Positions 6,971 to 40,413 of a stretch of 42,914 bases of DNA are shown here, piece by piece. Positions within the stretch are counted from its first letter, which is position 1, and each line of letters starts with the position of its first letter. Position numbers and translations under genes: made by a program. The DNA lies in the NCBI GenBank assembly GCA_946408355.1, contig CAMJRX010000021.1, forward strand, positions 1 to 42,914, given 5' to 3'. The stretch comes from an uncultured Selenomonadales bacterium (GTDB lineage: Bacteria; Bacillota; Negativicutes; Selenomonadales; Selenomonadaceae). The notes under the pieces were generated by a model. It was not told the origin of the DNA. It worked only from the letters and a program-made list of their open reading frames with translations, and did not search any database.

Positions 6971-8020
6971 TTAGTGTCTTGAATTTTTTTCAAAAACTTT
7001 TTTTAACTCGTCGAAGGGCAAAGTTCTCAAGTGCGCCAATTTATTTCGGACTTCGCGATAAAATTCCAAATCATCGGCGTCATTTTCATTGATAAGCCAA
7101 CGCCTTTGATTAAACAAGCCGTAAAGTTGACCAATCTCGACTTCTTCGGGCGTAGATAAATATGGCGGCGTATTTTTAATTTGATCCTCGTATTGCCTAA
7201 TAAAATTGCGTCTGAAAGTCTCGACGAGCGGGAAAATTAATTTGAGTTGCGTCATCCAAATCGCTTGCTCAATATCGTCGGTACTTTTGCCGGAAGTAAA
7301 TTTTCCCTCCCATAAAATATCCTCAAAAACTTCTTCGGGATTTTTAAGGAAGTCGTCACTCCGTCCAATGCATTCTGCGCCAAATTCTACGTCGCCTTCA
7401 GTGAGCGCGGAAACTAATTCAGCGAGATATTGTTTCATAAGGTGATTTTCATTGGCAAAATCGGCGGCGGCAAAAATATTAAACGCAAAACTATCATAAC
7501 CGCTGATTTTTTCGTTGTAGGAAAGAATTTCAACGCCGGCTTTAAGATTTAAGGGATAATTCGTTTCTAAAAGAAATACGCCGCCGCGTTTACCGTCAAG
7601 AAAGTTTTGATAATCGGCGATAAATGTAAACCAACTGTCGAATTGGGCGGGCGAGGCGTTGCGAATCCAAATACAGCTATCGTTAAGAGCAATTCCGGTA
7701 CTTTCCGCCAAAAATTTTGCATAAGCTTTTTTGTTGTAGGGGCGGAAACCGTCTTTATTAGCGCAAAAATTTTTCAGTACGAATTCTTGAGGCTCTGCAG
7801 AAATATTTTCGGCGTCGACAACTTTAATCGTTTGAGTGCCCTTGCGCAAAAGTTTTTCTAAGACATCGCGCATAATATTTAGCCAGGGAACGGATTTAGG
7901 CAAGGACAGCACGACGCTTTTGCCGCCTGACAAATTTTCAGCCGTTTCAAGCAAAAATCTGCGCGGACCGTTTAAATCTTCCCACCAAATTTTTCCGAAT
8001 AATTCTTCGCGATTAATCAT
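6971..8020 (-). CDS. HEPN-motif protein partnered with the giant ATPase
   Basis: This 349-residue protein ends in a clear HEPN RNase signature: R325-N-K-L-A-H330 in YREVRNKLAHLR, matching the R-x4-H motif of HEPN ribonucleases used in abortive infection and toxin systems. The N-terminal two thirds read like a degenerate P-loop fold: SGGKSVVLSLP near residue 32 lacks the first Walker-A glycine, and GGVFLLETNYPL looks like a strand after a Walker-B position. The gene overlaps the upstream 1733-residue ATPase gene by 8 bases with GGAGG placed for re-initiation, so the two are almost certainly co-expressed. RNase activity is inferred from the motif only; HEPN folds can also be inactive binding modules. 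Confidence 0.55.
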   Translation of the reverse strand: MINREELFGKIWWEDLNGPRRFLLETAENLSGGKSVVLSLPKSVPWLNIMRDVLEKLLRKGTQTIKVVDAENISAEPQEFVLKNFCANKDGFRPYNKKAYAKFLAESTGIALNDSCIWIRNASPAQFDSWFTFIADYQNFLDGKRGGVFLLETNYPLNLKAGVEILSYNEKISGYDSFAFNIFAAADFANENHLMKQYLAELVSALTEGDVEFGAECIGRSDDFLKNPEEVFEDILWEGKFTSGKSTDDIEQAIWMTQLKLIFPLVETFRRNFIRQYEDQIKNTPPYLSTPEEVEIGQLYGLFNQRRWLINENDADDLEFYREVRNKLAHLRTLPFDELKKVFEKNSRH

Positions 8021-11000
8021 TATCGACCTCCGACATCAGCTTTAAAAGCGCGTCTTCGACCTCGTTAAGAGTTCCAACGATACGGAGAATTCTTTGGCGG
8101 GAAAAAAGATAATTATCAGTGCCGGTCTTGCGCAAAATATTTAATTCGCAAAGTTCTTCCATGAGCGCACCGATTTTTTCCTCCGAATTAGGCAGGAAAG
8201 GTTCTTTAATCAGCCCGAAAGTTTCTGCGGCGTTCAAAATATCTTTAGGCGAATAACCGTCAACACTGTTTTGATTGTAATAAAGATGAGCGAGCAAATT
8301 GGCGATAACGAAATAATATTTGTCCTCGCCGAGCCGCAAAGTAATTTCGATTTTGGTTTTAATATCCTTAGTGAATTCGCGGTCAGCAAGAATCTTTTTA
8401 ATATGCTCCTCGCTGATTCGATAAATGGGCGTGTCGGCGTCGTAGCCAGCGTAACTAGGCTCAAACAGAGCTTTAATTAATTTTTCGCAGTAAAGCTGAA
8501 TTAAACTGGGGAAATAATTCGCCGTCTCCAAAATCGTCAAGATAAGCGAATCTTTTTGGTTATCGGGGAAATACAAGCCCAAATACCTAAGCGGCACTTC
8601 CAAAAGTTTTCTAGCATCCTCCACGCCGAACGGTTTAACAGTCAAAGATTTAAGCGTCGGGAGAATGCTGTTGTTGCTGAAAGTTTTTTCGCGTTCAAAG
8701 CGGATAATATTGCGCAAACCGGCGATAACGAACTTGAAACGACTGCCGTTATAATCTTCCTGTTGAGTTTTGGCAAGCGCGACAATCGGGCTGTAATTAT
8801 TTTCCGCGCAGGATTCGATAAATTTATCTGCCTCGTCGAGTGTAAGCAGGAAGTAGGGAATTTTCGCGAGTTTATCGCTTGAGAGGCGATTTCTTATGGC
8901 GCGGGTGAGTTCGTCCCAATCATCGGTTTCAAAAGTTTCGTCGAAGAAATTTTTATCGCTAAGTTCGCGACTTGTTAAAATTGCCGCCTCGCGATAATTT
9001 TTGTCGTCAATGTCAATAAAGATTGCGCGTTCGTTATTGTTGCCGTCGATTTTCCTGCACGCCATTTTCAAAAGCGCGGATTTTCCGAGTTGACGACCGC
9101 CACAAACAATATTAACTCCGCCGTGATTCATGACTTCGTTAATTTCGTTTTCGCGCCCGATAAACATTTCCGGCGGCAGAGGGATTCGTGGCGACCAAAT
9201 ATAAGGTTGGCAACGGGCGAACGGCATAATAAGCGACATAAGCGTATCAGTAATTCGTTTGGTACCGAGTTGCGCCGCGCAGTTTTTGAGCAGATACATT
9301 ATCGCGACCCTATCGACGACCGCGAAAACTTTCGTAAGATTTTTATCAAGTTTAATCTCTTTGGCGAGGCGGCGGCGCGTCGGCAGGTCAAGTGCGTAAT
9401 CCAAAAATATCAGCGTGTGTTCGCTGTTGCCGAGTTCTTTAAATTTCTCAACCAAATTTTTTTCGTCGAATTTGCCGAAAAGACACGAGACATTAAAGCC
9501 GTTAATTTCCGCGTCCGAGCCGAATGCCGCTATCGGGTGACTGCCTTTCTGCCCCGTGCCGAAAATCTTAACGTGGAAATTAATCGTGTTAGCACTAAGC
9601 AAGAAAAGTTTCTTCACACTTTCCACGCTAAAGCCGAGCGATTCCAGCAGAATTTTAATCTTGTCTTCGCCAACGGGATTTGTAATCCAATTTTTAATAA
9701 GATTGAGTTTAGCGCGAGAAACTTTATCACGCGGGAAAATTTTCTTGCCGATTAAATTCTCCAGCGAATCGCCGCTATCTTTGACACGATTATAACAATC
9801 GCTATACTCTTCCGCGTCCAAAAATCTAGCAAGCGGGGTGTCTTCTGCGTCGTCGAATTTTTTGTAGAGTTCACCGCGACTTAACTTGAAAATCAAGCCT
9901 TGAGCCGCCGTACAATTCCGCGAGGCAATTATCTTTTCAATCTCCGCGACGCTGTCATCAAGCTCCGCCGAGTTAAAATTGTCAGCAACTTCCTTGTAAC
10001 TTTCAACTGCCGATTGCAAATCTTTTTTGAGAACTTCGCCGCGCTTGGTAGCATTGTCCTCGATAACGTCTTCCCAATGCTTTTTTACACGGAAGAATAT
10101 GCCGAAATTTTTACTAGCCTCAGCGTATTTAAAACAATTTTCGACGAGCTGAAGAATTTTTTCCTTTTCGCCTTCGGGCAACGTGTCAAATTGTCCGTAG
10201 CTTTGCGCCAGCTCCAATCCGCCGATAAAACTTTCCAAATAGCGCGGAGCGTCCTTAGCGGCACTGTTAACGCACTTAGCCACGTCATATTCTTTTTTCT
10301 CGATAAACGACGCGCCCTTAACGTCTTTAAGATAATCGTCAATCATCTGCGCGGAACCAAAATCATCGCCGCCCGTCTCAAAAATCTGCTCGATACGTGC
10401 CTCAAAAGTCGGCAACTTCTGCGCGGCATGCTTTTTAATCTGTTCAGCAATATTATCCCGCGAGCCGTCGGAAATATTCAGCTCAAAATTCGGCAGATAA
10501 TTTTCGTTGAGAACAACTTTATCGCCGCACAAAAATTCCGCGTAGAAATATTTTTTACTAAGTTTGTTATAGGAGCCGTCAAGCCGCGCAGAAATTTCCC
10601 GCAAAGTTTGAGCAACGACAATCGCGCCCGCGTCACTCGACAAAATCTTTTGAGCCTGTTGAATGTCATCGACGAGCCGCGAACGAATTTTTTTGTACTT
10701 AATACTGCCGCTGTCTTCGCCGCTTGCACTGATAATTTCCGCGCAACCAACCCACGCACACATAATTTCGGCGGCGCGTTCCAAAGTTTTCGTAATATTA
10801 TTTTCCAGTTCGCCCGTCAGCTTGCCGGGATTTTTTTTGTCGCAAACCGCGTCCCAATTATATGCTACAAATTGCTTGAGCTTGCCATTATCAATATTTA
10901 CAACGCTAAAATCGGCGTCCTTCTTGAGGAAAGTTTCTGCTAAAAAATCTTTGACGAGATTCAGCGTATCTACCGAACGCGCCTCAGTTTTATCCCTTAT

Positions 11001-13214
11001 CGCGTTGAAAATTTGTGCTAAATCTCCGTCGCGAGCAAAAAGAACTTTCTTAAGTCTAATAAAAGTTTTGTTTTCGGCATTGTCGCTCAACCGCCCCGCA
11101 AAAAAGCGCGAGTAATAATCTTCGGCGTTGCGAATTACTTTGGCAAGATTTTCTTCGGCGGCAACTTTATCTTTAGTTCGATAGTCAGCGTAAAAGTCTA
11201 AACCCTTGCGCACGTCGGTTTTAAAGTTTTTCAAGTCAATAATCAGCTCCGACAAAGCCGCATTTGCCTTGATAATCCCAAAGCTATTAATCAGTGCGTG
11301 CAAAGTCGGAATGCCATAATCAACGCCGAAATCATTATAAAAAAGTGCACGAACGGCGGCGGCAGTTATCAGAGCCTCGCTAAAATCGTCGTCGTCATGT
11401 GTAGCCAAAATTGAAATCGAGTCGGCACTGTAGCCCTCGTTCAAAAGCGGGTCATCAAGCGCAAAGGCAAGTTGCCGATAAAGAATTTCAGCCGCTTTAA
11501 TATCCAAACTCTGCGCTTTAAGATAAGCCGTAGCGCAGTAAAATTTTTTATTCAAAAGCAAGTCCTTAACGTCATGCAAAATTTTTTCTTTAATCGTCGC
11601 GTCAATGGGCGGAGCTGCAGATTTTTGCACAACGGGAACTTCTGCAACTTCTTCCGGCTCGTCGTCGGAAATTTTATCGGGTTCAGGGTCATTGTCTTTG
11701 GGCGGCTCGGATTTATTCCAAATATCAGCCGCAGAAATTTTTTCCATAGTGTCCTTGCGATAAAATTCACTGTCTTTGAAGTCGTACAAATAAATATCGT
11801 CGGCTTGCGGGAAATCAATCGTTAAAATTTCTTTGAGCGCGTCAAAAATTTTCGTAGCGTGTTGAAGTGTAAGTCCCGCCACGAACACGCGATTAAACTT
11901 TTTGGCATCGTCTACGTGATTGCGTTGATGTTTCAAAAAAACTTCGCTATCTTCCGCTTTTTCCCAAAAACAGCCTAACAGCAAATCGCGTTTCTTCTCG
12001 CTGATAAACTCAACGCGGAATGTTTGCGGCGAAGATTCTATATCAGACAAAATATTGCCGTGCTCATGCTCAATAGTGTAAAGAGAACAATAAATTGTCC
12101 GCGCCAATGCAAACTTAATATCTTCAGACAGGAAAGCAAATTTTTCGAGGTCACTTTTACTGCGCGTGTAGTTGATAAATTTCTTGCCGCTGTCAGTCTT
12201 CACGAACTCAAAAAAGTTTCTCGTAAAGCCGTAAAATTCGCCGTATTTCTCGAAAGAATATTTCTGAATGTAACCCTTGTTGAACAAAAGTTGAGCAATG
12301 CCTTCCATAATATCCTTAGGCATTTTCTTCGGACGGAATGCCGGCCACGACAGCAAACCCTTATTCGCAATGTAGCACAAAACCGGCTTAAGAAGTTCGG
12401 CATTTTTAAAATCGCGCTTGAAACGAACGGCGGAAAATTCTCTGTTGCGCTCGTTTTTATCGATAGTAAAAATTTTTTCCCACTCGGCAAAATCATCTTC
12501 CGTAAGCAGTGCGCCCTTATCGTTAAGAATTTTAATGAAGTCGTCTTTTTTGGGTGGCGGCTCCAAAGCAAGCGGAATAGTCACGGACGGATTAATTTTC
12601 TTCTTGCGCGGTTTAACTATTTTTGGCTCTTCAAATTCTTCAGGCGTCACCAAAGTCAATTCGTCACCGAATAGCCCATGCCCAATTAAATCGTCGCTGA
12701 AATACTCTCTAAGCTCTGCGCCCGCCGAAAACTTTTTGCCAATATCGGTTTCTTCCGTAGCGTTGACAAATTTGGCGTATCTCTCAACAGTCGCCTTTAA
12801 CTTTGAGTTCTGCCTCTTTCTTTCAAGCAATTTTTTCAGCTGGCTTTGCTGTTCGCCCAAAATTTTTTTCAACTTGGAACTCTTAGCGACGAAATATAAA
12901 AATTTTTCCGCCTGCATTACGATGTTAGCATCGCGAATTCTGGTTTCTTCCGCGTCCAAAATCTTTTCTGCCTCAGAAAATTTATCAGGCAACGGCGCAT
13001 TGAAAATCTTCCTGTACAATTCAAAGCATTCGATAGATTTTTTTATCCATGCTAATAAATCGTCGCTCCAAACTTGTAAGCCTTCAGCCGTAGCAAATTT
13101 TTCGTGGTCAATAATTCTTCCAATCTCAATTAAATCTCGCTTAAAGGTCGTCCCCAACTCGCGTAATTCGTTTAAAGTGCGTCGAAGTTCGTCGATTTTT
13201 TGAAGAGATTCCAT
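8013..13214 (-). CDS. Giant P-loop ATPase (STAND/AAA-like), possible defence sensor
   Basis: A 1733-residue soluble protein. The first 200 residues are charged and helical with coiled-coil character. An acidic Pro-rich linker (about 500-535) splits the N-terminal part from a long helical middle. A small alpha/beta module (about 1265-1315, TLIFLDYALDLPTRRRLA and VFAVVDRVAIMYL) precedes the ATPase. The ATPase begins EMFIGRENEI at 1349, with Walker A GGRQLGKS (1372-1379) and Walker B FLLTLDEAD (1455-1463), followed by helical and winged-helix-like segments to the end. The architecture suits a nucleotide-switch sensor or scaffold such as STAND-type defence proteins, but I cannot name a family. 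The ATG has GGAGG seven to eight bases upstream. The gene follows livF by 30 bases without a visible terminator and overlaps the HEPN gene. Confidence 0.6.
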   Translation of the reverse strand: MESLQKIDELRRTLNELRELGTTFKRDLIEIGRIIDHEKFATAEGLQVWSDDLLAWIKKSIECFELYRKIFNAPLPDKFSEAEKILDAEETRIRDANIVMQAEKFLYFVAKSSKLKKILGEQQSQLKKLLERKRQNSKLKATVERYAKFVNATEETDIGKKFSAGAELREYFSDDLIGHGLFGDELTLVTPEEFEEPKIVKPRKKKINPSVTIPLALEPPPKKDDFIKILNDKGALLTEDDFAEWEKIFTIDKNERNREFSAVRFKRDFKNAELLKPVLCYIANKGLLSWPAFRPKKMPKDIMEGIAQLLFNKGYIQKYSFEKYGEFYGFTRNFFEFVKTDSGKKFINYTRSKSDLEKFAFLSEDIKFALARTIYCSLYTIEHEHGNILSDIESSPQTFRVEFISEKKRDLLLGCFWEKAEDSEVFLKHQRNHVDDAKKFNRVFVAGLTLQHATKIFDALKEILTIDFPQADDIYLYDFKDSEFYRKDTMEKISAADIWNKSEPPKDNDPEPDKISDDEPEEVAEVPVVQKSAAPPIDATIKEKILHDVKDLLLNKKFYCATAYLKAQSLDIKAAEILYRQLAFALDDPLLNEGYSADSISILATHDDDDFSEALITAAAVRALFYNDFGVDYGIPTLHALINSFGIIKANAALSELIIDLKNFKTDVRKGLDFYADYRTKDKVAAEENLAKVIRNAEDYYSRFFAGRLSDNAENKTFIRLKKVLFARDGDLAQIFNAIRDKTEARSVDTLNLVKDFLAETFLKKDADFSVVNIDNGKLKQFVAYNWDAVCDKKNPGKLTGELENNITKTLERAAEIMCAWVGCAEIISASGEDSGSIKYKKIRSRLVDDIQQAQKILSSDAGAIVVAQTLREISARLDGSYNKLSKKYFYAEFLCGDKVVLNENYLPNFELNISDGSRDNIAEQIKKHAAQKLPTFEARIEQIFETGGDDFGSAQMIDDYLKDVKGASFIEKKEYDVAKCVNSAAKDAPRYLESFIGGLELAQSYGQFDTLPEGEKEKILQLVENCFKYAEASKNFGIFFRVKKHWEDVIEDNATKRGEVLKKDLQSAVESYKEVADNFNSAELDDSVAEIEKIIASRNCTAAQGLIFKLSRGELYKKFDDAEDTPLARFLDAEEYSDCYNRVKDSGDSLENLIGKKIFPRDKVSRAKLNLIKNWITNPVGEDKIKILLESLGFSVESVKKLFLLSANTINFHVKIFGTGQKGSHPIAAFGSDAEINGFNVSCLFGKFDEKNLVEKFKELGNSEHTLIFLDYALDLPTRRRLAKEIKLDKNLTKVFAVVDRVAIMYLLKNCAAQLGTKRITDTLMSLIMPFARCQPYIWSPRIPLPPEMFIGRENEINEVMNHGGVNIVCGGRQLGKSALLKMACRKIDGNNNERAIFIDIDDKNYREAAILTSRELSDKNFFDETFETDDWDELTRAIRNRLSSDKLAKIPYFLLTLDEADKFIESCAENNYSPIVALAKTQQEDYNGSRFKFVIAGLRNIIRFEREKTFSNNSILPTLKSLTVKPFGVEDARKLLEVPLRYLGLYFPDNQKDSLILTILETANYFPSLIQLYCEKLIKALFEPSYAGYDADTPIYRISEEHIKKILADREFTKDIKTKIEITLRLGEDKYYFVIANLLAHLYYNQNSVDGYSPKDILNAAETFGLIKEPFLPNSEEKIGALMEELCELNILRKTGTDNYLFSRQRILRIVGTLNEVEDALLKLMSEVDND

Positions 13215-27139: not shown

Positions 27140-27168
27140 TTGACTTGCAAGTAAAAATTCTGTATATT
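27140..27168 (+). promoter_or_regulatory. Sigma-70 promoter of the exporter operon
   Basis: TTGACT (27140-27145), a 17-base spacer and TATATT (27163-27168). The predicted start near 27175 leaves almost no leader for the ATG at 27183 and favours a start at 27204 or 27207. It has no ECF-type -35, unlike the peptide promoters. Confidence 0.65.
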
Positions 27169-33585: not shown

Positions 33586-33610
33586 AAAAATCATCGAAAC
33601 GTTTAATAAA

Positions 33611-33645
33611 TAAAAAAACCCCGCGATTTTGCAGGGGCTAATTTT
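33611..33645. terminator. Bidirectional terminator between tolC and peptide gene A
   Basis: CCCCGC and GCAGGGG arms (one bulged A) have A7 on the left and T6 on the right. It ends tolC on the plus strand and peptide gene A on the minus strand. Confidence 0.75.
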
Positions 33646-33648
33646 TTA

Positions 33649-33840
33649 TTAACGAGGTGGATATTTATTAACGTCGGTTTTTATGTTCGGATTGCCGGCC
33701 GCCGCCACTTGGTCGAGTTCATCAAGCGACATCTCTTCGTTGATTGTCCGGCGGCGAAGTTTCAATCTGAATAAAAGACTGTCTTTGATTTTGCTGAACT
33801 GCGAAAAATCTGTTTGCTCAAATCTGTCCTCGATTGTCAT
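33649..33840 (-). CDS. Small precursor-like peptide A
   Basis: A 63-residue peptide starting MTIEDRFEQTDFSQFSKIKD, with a basic segment LLFRLKLRRR and then MSLDELDQVAAAG, which has the form of a leader ending in a double-glycine-like cleavage site. The remaining 14 residues, NPNIKTDVNKYPPR, would be the released peptide. GGAGAG lies eight bases before the ATG. There is no Cys and little Ser/Thr in the tail, so it does not look like a lanthipeptide. It is a near copy of peptide B and has its own ECF-type promoter and terminator. Function unknown; it is probably the substrate of the convergent exporter, which carries a C39 leader peptidase. Confidence 0.65.
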   Translation of the reverse strand: MTIEDRFEQTDFSQFSKIKDSLLFRLKLRRRTINEEMSLDELDQVAAAGNPNIKTDVNKYPPR

Positions 33841-33872
33841 GTCAATCACTCTCCAAAATTTTCTATGTCTTA

Positions 33873-33898
33873 TACGTTGCAAAACAGAATTTGTTACA
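33873..33898 (-). promoter_or_regulatory. ECF-type promoter of peptide gene A
   Basis: On the minus strand TGTAAC (33893-33898), exactly 16 bases, then CGTATA (33871-33876). The TGTAAC/CGTA pair with N16 spacing is typical of ECF sigma promoters (compare TGAAAC-N16-CGTA/C of Bacillus). Confidence 0.6.
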
Positions 33899-33906
33899 GC
33901 TTCCAA

Positions 33907-33941
33907 AAAAAATTCCCCGCGATTTTGCAGGGACTAATTTT
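33907..33941 (-). terminator. Terminator after peptide gene B
   Basis: A duplicate of the terminator after gene A: GTCCCTGC and GCGGGGA arms followed by T8 on the minus strand. Each duplicated unit therefore carries promoter, gene and terminator. Confidence 0.7.
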
Positions 33942-34136
33942 TTATTTACGCGGTGGATATTTATTAATGTCGTTTTTTATGTTCGGATTGCTAGCCGCCG
34001 CTACCATGTCGAGTTCATCAAGCGACATCTCTTCGTTGATTGCCCGGCGGCGAAGTTTCAATCTGAATAAAAGACTGTCCTTGATTTTGCTGAACTGCGA
34101 AAAATCTGTTTGCTCAAATCTGTCCTCGATTGTCAT
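33942..34136 (-). CDS. Small precursor-like peptide B
   Basis: A 64-residue peptide, nearly identical to peptide A: the leader-like 45 residues differ at one position before the MSLDELD segment. The cleavage region reads LDMVAAAS instead of LDQVAAAG, and the tail is NPNIKNDINKYPPRK. Differences cluster in the last about 20 residues, as expected for a precursor whose exported part varies. The gene follows the ECF sigma gene by about 80 bases, with TGTAAC-N16-CGTA between them and GGAGAG before the ATG. Confidence 0.65.
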   Translation of the reverse strand: MTIEDRFEQTDFSQFSKIKDSLLFRLKLRRRAINEEMSLDELDMVAAASNPNIKNDINKYPPRK

Positions 34137-34166
34137 GTCAATCACTCTCCAAAATTTTCTATGTCT

Positions 34167-34194
34167 TATACGTTGCAAAACAGAATTTGTTACA
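34167..34194 (-). promoter_or_regulatory. ECF-type promoter of peptide gene B
   Basis: Same elements as for gene A: TGTAAC (34189-34194), 16 bases, CGTATA (34167-34172) on the minus strand, 296 bases from the other copy. Confidence 0.6.
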
Positions 34195-34212
34195 GCTTCC
34201 AAAAAAATTTTT

Positions 34213-34761
34213 TTAATCCCTGTCGCCCAAAATATTTTTCAGCTTGCCGAGCGTGCGGTACAGTGTGACACGAACATTGCTCTCACTCATGGATAAAATT
34301 TCGGCGATTGTGCGCGTGTCCTGTTCGCCCCAATACCTAAGCTCAATAATTCGGCGTTCGCGCTCGTTGAGTTTATCCAATGCCGCCAAAAGTCCACGAC
34401 TAGTTTCGCTGTTAATCATTTGACGTTCGGGCTCCTCATGTTCAGGCGCGGCAGGGTCGAAGAATTCTTCCCACTCGGTTTCTTTATTTCTGTCGATATG
34501 GCGCGTTTGGTCGATTATCGCGTTGTTCGCAATTCTAAAAAGCCACGTCGAGAAAGCGGCGCGTTCAGGATTGTAACTTTCAAGGTTCTCGTTCATTTTC
34601 AAGAAAGTTGTACTCGTCACGTCGTCGGCGTCCGCAGAATTTTTCAGCCGCGCATAAATAAAATTATACACTCGTGGAAAAAAATGTTTGTACAGCTCCT
34701 CGAAAGCCTCCTCGTCAGTCGTCGCTCGTTGGGCAAGGGTATCGTAATAATTATCAATCAT
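34213..34761 (-). CDS. ECF-family RNA polymerase sigma factor
   Basis: A 182-residue sigma factor. Region 2 is seen in EEAFEELYKHFFPRVYNFIYA and DADDVTSTTFLKMNENLESYN, with the FSTWLFRIANNAIIDQTR stretch for -10 recognition. Region 4 is seen in LNERERRIIELRYWGEQDTRTIAEILSMSESNVRVTLYR for -35 binding. The ATG at 34761 is preferred because GGCGGAG precedes it. It has a conventional promoter rather than an ECF-type one, so it may not be self-activated. No anti-sigma factor gene adjoins it, which is unusual for ECF factors. The two peptide genes directly downstream carry ECF-type promoters and are its most likely targets. Confidence 0.88.
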   Translation of the reverse strand: MIDNYYDTLAQRATTDEEAFEELYKHFFPRVYNFIYARLKNSADADDVTSTTFLKMNENLESYNPERAAFSTWLFRIANNAIIDQTRHIDRNKETEWEEFFDPAAPEHEEPERQMINSETSRGLLAALDKLNERERRIIELRYWGEQDTRTIAEILSMSESNVRVTLYRTLGKLKNILGDRD

Positions 34762-34794: not shown

Positions 34795-34823
34795 ATTTTA
34801 GCACAACGCCGCCGCTTTAACAA
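34795..34823 (-). promoter_or_regulatory. Probable sigma-70 promoter of the ECF gene
   Basis: On the minus strand TTGTTA, a 17-base spacer and TAAAAT, about 35 bases before the ATG. Confidence 0.5.
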
Positions 34824-36790: not shown

Positions 36791-38908
36791 TCAATCTAAT
36801 TTGTTAATAAGGTAAATGTAATTCTCTAAACGACAAATGTTGTTTTCTTTGTCTACATAAGCAGATTTTAGCTCTTCAAATTCTTTATTTATGTCGGTTA
36901 GAAGATGTTCTGCGAAATTCTCTTTGATTGAATTGAGTTGCTCTTTGAATTTTGTGATTTCGTTGGTGAATTTGTCGCTAATAATGTTAAAGAGGTTAGC
37001 TATGATTTCAGATAAATCTTTTTGAATTTGGGAACGCGCAGAAGAATCACGAACTTCGCCAGAGAATTTGCTTGAAATTTTAGCCAAAGGCTCTTCTACG
37101 TCAATTTTGATAACGGGAAAGTCAATTTGGTTGAGTGTCCTTTCGGCAAGCAATCTGAAGTAAGCAGGGTCAAAAGATTCATCGGAAACATCAAAAGAAT
37201 CAGTAATAAGCTTGAGAAGTCTGTTTTTGAGAGCTAATAAATTGGCGGCTTCGACAAATCCCGATTCAATGGAAGAGGCAGATTCGCGGGCATAATTGCG
37301 AATGTTTTCAAGGGCGTCATTGGCGTCAATGTAAGTGTAACGTGTCTCGTAAGTGTAATATTCTTTATGAGAACTTCCCCAAGTCAACGGATTGTACCAT
37401 TTTGAATCACTGACACGGAAAGATTTAACATTGACTTCAACGCCGGTTTTGGTAGCAAGTGCCGAGTAGTCGTGACTGGAACGACGCAGAGCAGTCAATA
37501 TTTCCAGCTTCACATGCTCCATTTTAGAATAGACTTCGCCAAAATATTCTTCAAGCCGACTTTGAATATTGTTGATTCTCGAACCGACAGCGCGTTGTTG
37601 ACATTCAATTTCCGCCTTATCGTTGTTGGCAAGTTGATTGTATTTATGGTTAGCGGCAGTTTTAATGTCATTAAGACATTGGCTAAGATTTCTTTGAGCA
37701 AGTGGTACAAATCTTGCGGCTTTTTTAGCGAGCGTAAAATCTTTTTGAGTGATAACTTCTTGCAAACGGGATTGCACAGGGTTAATATCGCCAATCGTCG
37801 CGAGCATGTCGTCGGTTAAGTCTTCATGATAGCTGAGATTGTCGAAAGCATTTTCTTCCGCTGAAGTGTACTCAGAACGATTTTTGCCAATCATATTGTG
37901 GAACAGCGAAGAGAGGAAAATAGGTGATTGACATTCGGTGAGGATTTTGGCAATGTCGCGGTTTCCAATTTTCTCGTATTCGGCAATTTGCTTGGTGAAA
38001 ACTTTCTTTGCTTGATTCCGCAATTTACTTTTCGTTTCGCTGATTGCCTCATTCAAACTGTCGGTGTCGTAGATAACATCAGTCAAGCCGTTATCGAATC
38101 TGCTACAAATCAAAACCAATCCGGCAACGCTTTTTTGCGGCAACTGTGCTTTAAGCAGATTAACATCGTTTTGGTCAAGAAATTGTGATGCGGGACTGAG
38201 GAAGAAGACCACGTCACAGAGACCGAGAAAATCTCTTGTCTTTTGAGTGCGGGAAATTACGGGGTCATTAAGTCCCGGCGTATCGATGATAGAAATTCCT
38301 TCGAGTTCGGGCTTGTTGATTTTGAGCGTGACGCATTTGACGAGCGGAGTAAATTCGCCATCCTCGCCGACATAGCGATTGAGTCTGCCAGTAAATTCGT
38401 CGTCCGAAGTAAATTTTTCAACGTCATGTCCTCTTGCCGTGACTTCGGCGGGTTCGACATTTTTATTGCGGACAGCTTGAACGAGTTCACGGGCGGCGCG
38501 TGCCTCGTCACTTTCGACGTTGGAATTTGCGTTCCGCTCGATAGCTTGCCAATCTTCGCCGCTGTAGCATTCGACCTCAAGGGAATTTTCTTTGGCGTAT
38601 TCGATTTTAGTAAGCGTGGCGGTTTTGGGCGTGAAAGCTTCGGGCAGAATGTGTTTGCCACTGAAAATAATTGTGTTGAGGAAGGTTGACTTACCGGCTT
38701 TGACACGTCCGACGACCGCGATATTGAGTTTGCGCTCCTCACCCGAAAAATCCTCCCAACTGCGCTTGAGTTCGTCACGGAGTTTGAGGACGGCATTGGC
38801 GTCGCCGCTGTCGTAAGCTCGAATCTGTTCAGCGATATTTTCTTCGCGCTCCAACAAAGCTTGAATCGCGCCAAAAGTTTTATCGGTCTCTTTAAAATGA
38901 ATTGCCAT
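36791..38908 (-). CDS. Dynamin-like GTPase
   Basis: A 705-residue bacterial dynamin-like protein. GTPase motifs: G1 GRVKAGKST (67-75), G2 Thr in FTPKTATLT, G3 DTPG (209-212), and a G4 position read as CSRFD rather than the usual TKxD. The rest is long helical bundle with no clear membrane span (residues about 300-705); an aromatic loop near KWYNPLTWGSSHKEYYTYE could be a membrane-contact tip. Such proteins remodel membranes or, in some cases, protect against phage. The ATG begins one base after the stop of the upstream gene, with GGCAGGATG as a site, so translation is coupled to that gene, which is now broken. Confidence 0.8.
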   Translation of the reverse strand: MAIHFKETDKTFGAIQALLEREENIAEQIRAYDSGDANAVLKLRDELKRSWEDFSGEERKLNIAVVGRVKAGKSTFLNTIIFSGKHILPEAFTPKTATLTKIEYAKENSLEVECYSGEDWQAIERNANSNVESDEARAARELVQAVRNKNVEPAEVTARGHDVEKFTSDDEFTGRLNRYVGEDGEFTPLVKCVTLKINKPELEGISIIDTPGLNDPVISRTQKTRDFLGLCDVVFFLSPASQFLDQNDVNLLKAQLPQKSVAGLVLICSRFDNGLTDVIYDTDSLNEAISETKSKLRNQAKKVFTKQIAEYEKIGNRDIAKILTECQSPIFLSSLFHNMIGKNRSEYTSAEENAFDNLSYHEDLTDDMLATIGDINPVQSRLQEVITQKDFTLAKKAARFVPLAQRNLSQCLNDIKTAANHKYNQLANNDKAEIECQQRAVGSRINNIQSRLEEYFGEVYSKMEHVKLEILTALRRSSHDYSALATKTGVEVNVKSFRVSDSKWYNPLTWGSSHKEYYTYETRYTYIDANDALENIRNYARESASSIESGFVEAANLLALKNRLLKLITDSFDVSDESFDPAYFRLLAERTLNQIDFPVIKIDVEEPLAKISSKFSGEVRDSSARSQIQKDLSEIIANLFNIISDKFTNEITKFKEQLNSIKENFAEHLLTDINKEFEELKSAYVDKENNICRLENYIYLINKLD

Positions 38909-38909
38909 A

Positions 38910-40413
38910 TTACATCCTGCCTTTTAATAAACTTATTGTGTCGACGATTGAAATGGTTGCCCCTTCGTTGTTTTTTTCCGAGCTGTCGTGCAAACCTATG
39001 ATAGAAGTTTCGGTGCAGTCTTCCCAATAATCTCTGCTATAACTACTATGATGTCGTTTAATTATGGTAGTTACATTGTCAAAAGAGCAATCGTTGCAAC
39101 GGGATTCCTTGTCCGGCAATAAAACATAACCATATAAATAATAATCGAAATGTCCTAGATTAAAGCAGTTGGTACAATTAACAAACCTATTAGCTTTCCA
39201 AAGCGTATTGGCGGATAAAATCATACAGCTTCTGTACTTCTCACCGCGATTAGAAAAATCGAAATTGCCGTTGAAATTTTCGAGTGAATTGTAACATTCC
39301 TTAAAGCGGCAATTTGAAACGCAGGAGTTGTTTATGGTAAATACCACGTAACAACCGGGGTATTGCCGAATGTCTTCAAAAGTACAACCATGAACCAAAC
39401 CGCTTCCCAGGTACAGAAAGGACGTCACGTCATTGAAATGTTTGAAAGTGCAATTTGCAAATGAGGCGTTTTCAAAATGATAAAGTTCCTGATAGCGTGT
39501 GCCGCCCGTTGTCCATGTGTAATATAAAAGGTTGTAATGTTGATTGCTCATCGAAGAGTAAGGAGGATCAAACCTGCGGCGTTTAAAAGTGCTTTGCTCG
39601 AAGGAACAGCTGAGAAATTTAACGACCTTGTTAGCCGAGTAAATGCCGCCGCAATTTTCAAAGCGACAATTCAAGAAAAGAATTTCGTTGGGTTTCCACT
39701 CGTCGAGCAAGAGGATATTTGAGCCTGTGTGCGTGGCGTTTAGGATAATGACACGATTTTTTCTTGAGGTTCGCCGCCTCGCTTAAAGACGCGGCAGGAG
39801 TTCCGCCAATATAAGTCGCAATATCTTTAGCCGTTAGAACTGTCCAAGTATTGCTCTTGCCGGCGGGATTGTCCCAATATGTCGCGTCGAGAACTTTAAC
39901 AAATTCCATTGCCTCCGTCAGAAAGCCATTGTCGAGTTTCAGCAGTTCATAGACGCCCGCAAGGAATTTTAATTGAGCGTCGTCCGCGCCCATGTGATGA
40001 CTTATCATGAGCGAATCAATAGCAAAGATATTTGCAAGCTCCGCCGAGTAAATTTCGCGAATGAGGTCGCTGAGCCGCTCTTCTGTAAAAGTCATCGCGT
40101 CAGTCGTGAGGTTCTGCAACTCGCCTTGATAATCGCAACCGGCGGCAATCCGATAAAGCACTGTCCAGCCTTCCTCTTTCTTTCCGCCAAGCGAAATCAG
40201 ATAAATCATTAGCGCAAGATAATCGTCGCGAAAAGGTTTGCCCGTCAGTGGGTGTTCGTAAAAAGAATATTGCTCGCCGCGCAATTTCAGTTCCGCAAAA
40301 TTTAAATGTTCCTCCGCGTCTTTCGTCGAGTAGCCTTACAATTCTTTGGAAACGTATTGTAGAATATCTTCTGCTTCAGCAAGCTTGCTACGTAATTTTG
40401 TTATGCTATCCAA
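38910..40413 (-). pseudogene. Broken helical/beta-helix gene upstream of the dynamin
   Basis: One about 500-codon gene with two lesions. The start TTG at 40413 has AAAGGAGG about ten bases upstream and opens MDSITKLRSKLAEAEDILQY, but codon 26 is TAA (40336-40338), after which the same frame continues (GYSTKDAEEHLNFAELK...). Near 39757-39762 an A6 run shifts the frame: with one A fewer, the 208-codon part joins smoothly to the next frame (KKNRVIILNATHTGSNILLL). The first half is alpha-helical, faintly TerB-like; the second is a right-handed beta-helix or pentapeptide-like repeat with regular cysteines (FLNCRFENCGGIYS, FLSCSFEQS). Partial products from internal starts (40284, 39710) remain possible. 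Function unknown, probably linked to the dynamin. Confidence 0.6.

Follow-up and report, generated by a model that had tools for sequence, protein, structure and literature searches.

The window, a 42,914-nucleotide stretch of DNA from what appears to be a rumen bacterium of the Quinella group, carries an ECF sigma gene and two peptide genes on its minus strand, transcribed in the order sigma, peptide 2 and peptide 1, and an NHLM/C39-type exporter operon (TIGR03796, TIGR03797 and TolC) on its plus strand, convergent with the peptide genes (Table 1). The sigma factor is assigned to the ECF class by the presence of sigma-70 regions 2 and 4, the absence of region 3 and a score above the TIGR02937 cut-off. 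A sequence-only reading of this DNA had described an ECF sigma gene with two tandem 296-base peptide units, each containing TGTAAC-N16-CGTATA, without stating the strand; this arrangement is confirmed. The units (33609-33904 and 33905-34200) are 296 nt each and 95% identical, with 16 differing positions, four in the terminator region and 12 in codons, and 10 of the 12 codon differences fall in codons 44-64, at or after the supposed cleavage site, which is where the differences had been said to concentrate. Each unit was also credited with a ribosome site and a terminator: GGAG ribosome sites are visible at the peptide genes and the hairpins are present, but as a class the latter are no commoner than in shuffled sequence (four terminator-like hairpins in the window, 4.0 expected from shuffles). 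The promoter motif TGTAAC-N16-CGTA occurs exactly twice in the window, once upstream of each peptide gene, compared to a mean of 0.05 in shuffled windows (n = 100), none of which reached two.

Table 1 Features of the sigma-peptide-exporter locus in the window, and loci of the distant peptide homologue
Feature	Position	Strand	Basis or remark
Sigma-70-like site upstream of exporter operon, TTGACT-17-TATATT	27140..27168	+	read by eye
C39 peptidase-ABC exporter subunit (NHLM ABC1), 744 aa	27183..29417	+	TIGR03796, 977.5 bits, cut-off 853.3
Second exporter subunit (NHLM ABC2), 904 aa	29383..32097	+	TIGR03797, 729 bits, cut-off 709.4
TolC-type outer membrane channel, 491 aa	32110..33585	+	Pfam OEP, 210.8 bits
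Terminator-like hairpin 3' of peptide 1	33619..33636	-	class not above chance
Peptide 1, 63 aa, leader end VAAAG, tail NPNIKTDVNKYPPR	33649..33840	-	ORF and homologues
ECF-type promoter of peptide 1, TGTAAC-N16-CGTATA	33871..33898	-	motif search
Terminator-like hairpin 3' of peptide 2	33914..33933	-	class not above chance
Peptide 2, 64 aa, leader end VAAAS, tail NPNIKNDINKYPPRK	33942..34136	-	92% identical to peptide 1
ECF-type promoter of peptide 2, TGTAAC-N16-CGTATA	34167..34194	-	motif search
ECF sigma factor, 182 aa	34213..34761	-	TIGR02937, 128.2 bits, cut-off 42.9; Pfam Sigma70_r2 and r4_2
Sigma-70-like site upstream of sigma gene, TTGTTA-17-TAAAAT with TG	34795..34823	-	consensus match only; class not above chance
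Distant peptide homologue	L062:5191-6295 (own genome), L064:8794-9772, L228:2436-3503		TolC adjoining at 2 of 3

The tandem duplication is local; the closest relative (L037/L183) has a single peptide copy, for which reason the duplication was rejected as the key feature of the locus. The genes that neighbour the sigma gene in the window encode TolC, the two peptides and a glycosyltransferase; no anti-sigma gene is found among them, and the peptides could occupy the usual place of such a neighbouring gene.

The ABC1 subunit also matches Peptidase_C39 and bears the Cys motif QMEATEC. The HlyD adaptor (TIGR03794; 216.2 bits with neighbours in frame, cut-off 156.2) is encoded on another contig (C12), unlinked to the present locus; linkage is seen in L056, L058 and L060. 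No modification enzyme was recognised among the scanned window proteins. A second locus of the same genome (contig C3, L179:37-3101) contains the end of an ABC2 gene, a second sigma gene, whose product is 45% identical to the sigma beside the peptides, a radical SAM ORF and three precursors with Nif11-like leaders, both scanned ones of which exceed the TIGR03798 cut-off. The exporter operon, this paralogous sigma-exporter locus and the genome-wide set of double-glycine cargo genes were all absent from the sequence-only reading. Elsewhere in the window, on the minus strand, AAA_14 is the sole match of a 1733-residue ORF (8013-13214) and a borderline one (27.4 bits, cut-off 27), and a dynamin-like GTPase adjoins two ORFs lacking a Pfam match (36791-40284).

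The promoter motif and its dispersed targets

The TGTAAC-CGTATA motif with a spacing of 15-17 bases has 11 sites in the present genome, against none of the reversed pattern. Two of them are the peptide promoters, and eight of the other nine lie upstream of an ORF whose start is 31-90 bases away and whose short double-glycine leader has VAGG or VTGG at its end (the gene at one of the eight, L079, is broken); downstream of the ninth a Sec-type protein is encoded, inside a cargo gene cluster. Relaxing the motif to TGTAACN15-17CGTA raises the count to 18, seven more than the strict set, with 10 reversed sites. Genus-wide (66 genomes), 404 sites were found in 43 genomes, compared to 45 reversed ones.

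Classification was confined to sites with 150 bases or more of downstream sequence, 118 distinct ones in all: every site of the own genome, every listed site of G024, G017, G062 and G033, those of the peptide loci, and one site each from up to 30 genomes. Three sites with a shorter flank were dropped. A leader ORF lies downstream of 91 of the 118 sites (78 of 105 when those with peptide genes are set aside) and at none of 114 on the opposite side. Random positions within the same loci, which are themselves rich in leader genes, have one in 166 of 2784 cases. Some of the 27 sites counted as lacking a recognised leader ORF (L152, L163) bear leaders outside the search pattern. The earlier proposal that sigma and peptides form a module under an ECF-type promoter of its own is supported, and the arrangement is conserved across a bacterial family, but the module is larger than had been described; a closed sigma-peptide module was rejected because the same promoter stands upstream of many leader-bearing genes.

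Those cargo proteins that were scanned with Pfam and NCBIfam gave nothing above cut-off besides Nif11 leaders. Past the leader, 91 of the 144 leader-bearing proteins belong to one linked family, frequently with an end motif like NxYxxNGkxISRxEAw, and no scanned member of this family matched a Pfam family above cut-off. At L079:5404 (own genome, contig C9) the leader ORF downstream of the regulon promoter ends early and is followed by a Hint-type domain in another frame, the gene being broken in the present assembly. At L076:2102 and L144:794, in two genomes, Sec-signal proteins of one family, possibly immunity or receptor proteins, stand under the regulon promoter inside a cargo cluster. In G024 the motif lies 93 bases 5' of GTxGDD-type repeat proteins without a double-glycine leader (L140:517 and L148:475).

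Of the 404 sites, 315 fall in the 27 of 66 genomes that encode a sigma at least 70% identical to the present one; the median is 12 sites in these genomes and zero in the other 39. Since the peptide genes of more distant genomes show a different -35, CTTAATA-N14-16-CGTATA was searched for as well, and its 38 sites fall in eight of the 66 genomes: all seven whose sigma is 54-57% identical, and the fragmented assembly G011, in which the full-length sigma is just 44% identical and a 62-residue sigma fragment lies at a contig end. Of these sites 30 were classified (one was dropped for its short flank and seven lie outside the sequences covered), and a leader ORF is located downstream of 21 and unrecognised at nine, compared to 0 of 29 in the control. 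Sigma region 4 reads the -35 element and region 2 the -10 element. When aligned, the two sigma clades have unlike region-4 helices and a similar region 2, which fits an altered -35 with a constant CGTATA. Fisher tests on the sigma-motif tables gave 1e-8 and 6e-9, values uncorrected for shared descent. The exact motif was expected upstream of homologous peptide genes and is found at 11 of 24 loci in the genus (a count that excludes the three-gene homologue type PEP3), with changed forms at most of the others; sigma and motif change together at homologue loci where both are comparable. A supposed third promoter class, TGTCATA, has a leader ORF at 3 of 11 sites only and is regarded as weak.

The motif counts, the leader ORFs, the co-occurrence with the sigma and the clade-specific -35 together argue that a dispersed set of exported proteins is very probably under the control of this sigma, and we infer that it reads the TGTAAC-N16-CGTATA promoter. 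That the regulon is real while its motif is read by some other regulator seems highly improbable. Such a regulator would account for five genomes (G067, G016, G014, G005 and G021) with 9-19 sites in which no sigma orthologue was detected, four of them giving only matches of 25-31% identity over 48-63 residues (E 0.002-0.19) and the fifth none, and the lack of correction for descent in the statistics above leaves it some room; four of the five are incomplete assemblies and G067 is rated 98% complete. It would not be expected from a motif with AAC in the -35 and CGT in the -10, which is the form of ECF promoters, from a -35 that shifts with sigma region 4 while region 2 and the -10 stay constant, or from a sigma gene adjoining the most constant target. 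Also at odds with a link to this sigma is G073, a genome with neither motif that nevertheless encodes a fragment of the sigma, with 63% identity over 112 residues.

The peptide family and its leader-like register

Scanning of GTDB genomes with the peptide alignment yielded 53 loci, all in members of the Selenomonadaceae or Selenomonadales save one labelled Veillonellaceae; the carriers include Selenomonas ruminantium ATCC 12561, Selenomonas sp. AE3005, Anaerovibrio lipolyticus DSM 3074 and A. slackiae. A search for homologues next to ECF sigma genes had been named as a check: at 31 of the 53 loci a sigma gene lies within 2 kb; an exporter gene occurs in the stretch examined at 23, either of the two at 41 and neither at 10, and two loci have no peptide of the present type. 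Two loci each were examined in S. ruminantium ATCC 12561 and Selenomonas sp. AE3005, and at all four the sigma gene comes after the exporter genes; exporter, sigma and peptide are found together in cultured Selenomonas. An S. ruminantium metagenome-assembled genome (L230) has a single row of genes for the exporter, TolC, the sigma, a VAGG cargo protein and the peptide. The peptides form a Selenomonadaceae family, usually adjoining the present sigma or the exporter. At three loci (Table 1) the gene of a distant homologue is located between those of an anti-sigma-type ATPase (HATPase_c_2) and a STAS protein, and the gene ends overlap.

The family matches no Pfam or NCBIfam family above cut-off, in keeping with the earlier statement that the module is not recognisable from known classes; the possibility that the peptides belong to a known non-secreted family was likewise checked, and no known family matched. 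The best matches to known families, type-A lantibiotic (E 0.068) and lactococcin G-beta (E 0.0064, for one of 22 members), were below cut-off and were rejected, and neither the Nif11 nor the NHLP leader model matched the peptides at E <= 1. The conserved features are a helical segment, DFSxFSKVKDSLL, and a leader-like docking helix (M/L-12, E-8, L-7 and V-4). The AlphaFold model from the peptide alignment (mean pLDDT 71, pTM 0.31) has helices at residues 3-9, 12-32 and 39-48 followed by a loose tail, and as a whole is too loose for a fold search. The helix segment and leader core have a mean identity of 68%, and the tail 18% (49 of 50 sequences could be separated into these parts); the tail is 9-20 residues long, hydrophilic and rich in K, P, N and D. 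For 22 homologues, compared in 231 pairs, the two parts of the leader gave pN/pS values of 0.30 and 0.18 and the tail one of 0.63, the last value being perhaps too high because the tails were aligned without gaps. Judged from these comparisons of sequence, the peptides are constrained coding sequence.

C39 peptidases, as described in excerpts of two papers, recognise leaders in which L-12, E-8 and L-7 are followed by Gly-Gly, Gly-Ala or Gly-Ser (PMC6363468, PMC10885120), and their cleft is called very narrow in an excerpt of a third (PMC6959990). Both peptides have the hydrophobic residues at -12, -7 and -4 and the Glu at -8 that docking calls for (L42 and V45 are conserved in at least 90% of 47 homologues; M37 and E41 were read from the alignment), and neither has GG, GA or GS at -2/-1. 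In the leader register these positions are Ala-Ala in 29 of 29 peptides, compared to GG in 98 of 102 cargo leaders (GS in two, AG in one and DE in one); the comparison drew on 177 sites, of which 46 without a matching ORF were left out. Both alanines are invariant in all 47 aligned homologues. The leader part of the peptides, 48 residues, is about twice as long as that of the cargo (median 23). As the docking positions are kept and Ala-Ala is fixed, the peptides look like leaders that may dock and remain uncut. The "exported tails" of the sequence-only reading are doubtful for the same reason, the peptides carrying Ala-Ala where the cargo carries Gly-Gly, even though the C39 domain encoded here might accept Ala-Ala.

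A proposed export-coupled regulon and a possible role of the peptides

We propose that the exporter and sigma genes would be made from housekeeping-type promoters, and that the sigma would recognise TGTAAC-N16-CGTATA and turn on about ten genes in the present genome, mostly scattered double-glycine cargo genes together with the two peptide genes adjoining its own. The cargo would exit through the adjacent NHLM/C39 type I exporter. The peptides would dock on the C39 domain and be cut poorly or not at all; being made under the sigma, they would compete with the cargo for the exporter and relay its state to the sigma, which is the least certain step. A report of exporter load to the sigma is suggested because no anti-sigma gene was found beside the sigma gene in the window, Ala-Ala is fixed, an extra helix is conserved, the peptide genes adjoin the sigma gene and the distant homologue has regulator neighbours. 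Comparison of genomes establishes the promoter, the regulon, the exporter and the conservation of the group, and speaks strongly for the switching on of these genes by the sigma. The part of this explanation that joins sigma, regulon and exporter is held with considerable assurance; a regulatory role of the peptides is tentative, at somewhat less than an even chance, and the statement as a whole, an exporter-cargo regulon activated by the sigma with the peptide mechanism deduced above, we regard as rather probable.

A bolder version, that the peptides are a new kind of anti-sigma factor forming an export-coupled switch for a type I secretion system, is speculative and rather unlikely. The DFSxFSKVKDSLL helix would then bind the ECF sigma, and the uncuttable leader mimic would dock on the C39 exporter; a free exporter would pull the peptide from the sigma so that the cargo regulon is made, and an exporter filled with cargo would leave the peptide on the sigma, stopping cargo synthesis.

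The main rival, close to the view of the sequence-only reading, is that the peptides are ordinary substrates, cut after Ala-Ala or Ala-Gly, whose tail of 9-20 residues acts outside the cell as a signal or an antimicrobial. They share their promoter with exported cargo, their gene adjoins the exporter, the leader-like docking positions are retained, and the tail varies between genomes and is less constrained, as in signal or bacteriocin peptides. Nevertheless, the C39 motifs named in the excerpted papers are GG, GA and GS (PMC6363468, PMC10885120), with Ala-Ala fixed here, and the cleft is said to be very narrow (PMC6959990); the conserved part has about twice the length of a cargo leader, and the short tail is hydrophilic, with abundant K, P, N and D. 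We consider this explanation a genuine possibility, if on the doubtful side. Alternatively, the peptides might be a part or plug of the exporter that gates or stabilises the C39 domain or the paired ABC subunits without contacting the sigma. A leader mimic with fixed Ala-Ala would suit that function, as would those loci that have peptide and exporter with no sigma within 2 kb in the stretch examined, but it would account neither for the sigma gene within 2 kb at 31 of 53 loci, nor for the homologue lying between an anti-sigma-type ATPase and a STAS gene at L062, L064 and L228, and it leaves the extra conserved helix unexplained; an exporter part or plug is considered unlikely.

If the sigma-regulon-exporter proposal is right, a clade of ECF sigma factors gains a concrete job, the control of a C39-exported protein set, and the promoter motif would find cargo genes wherever they are located, giving a readable secretome for a largely uncultured rumen genus. 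If the peptides are indeed uncut leader mimics acting on the sigma, they would represent a new coupling of gene expression to an export machine. The same genes are present in cultured Selenomonas and Anaerovibrio, so the idea is testable. Among the literature matches listed, no paper has NHLM or double-glycine cargo under the control of an ECF sigma, and a term search of the Quinella genome paper (PMC9585023) found no "bacteriocin", and "sigma" solely as a company name.

Comparison with known systems

FlgM-type anti-sigma factors are export-coupled, and the logic proposed here is shared with them, a small sigma-made protein that informs the sigma about the condition of an export machine. The export machine is unrelated to that of FlgM, no sequence relation is claimed, and binding of the peptides to the sigma is purely hypothetical. 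With the double-glycine leaders of class II bacteriocins and competence pheromones the peptides have docking positions -12, -8, -7 and -4 in common, and they differ from these by Ala-Ala at -2/-1, a leader about twice as long and a short hydrophilic tail.

The exporter and the leaders are of a known kind. The NHLM/NHLP and Nif11 systems, as set out in the excerpted account of Haft et al. 2010 (PMC2887384) and represented by the models TIGR03794, TIGR03796, TIGR03797 and TIGR03798, have the same exporter subunits, matched here above curated cut-offs, and likewise leader-bearing precursors with a Gly-Gly export site; Nif11 leaders occur at the second sigma locus. In contrast to those systems, the cargo genes here are scattered under one ECF-type promoter, the window scan recognised no modification enzyme, and the peptides have neither an NHLP or Nif11 leader nor Gly-Gly. 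The bacteriocin regulon of SigX in Streptococcus mutans (PMC4497675) is reported similarly to combine an alternative sigma with exported double-glycine peptides, SigX being a competence sigma of a Gram-positive organism under pheromone control. The regulon described here differs in having an ECF sigma encoded beside the exporter, in a cell with a Gram-negative-type envelope.
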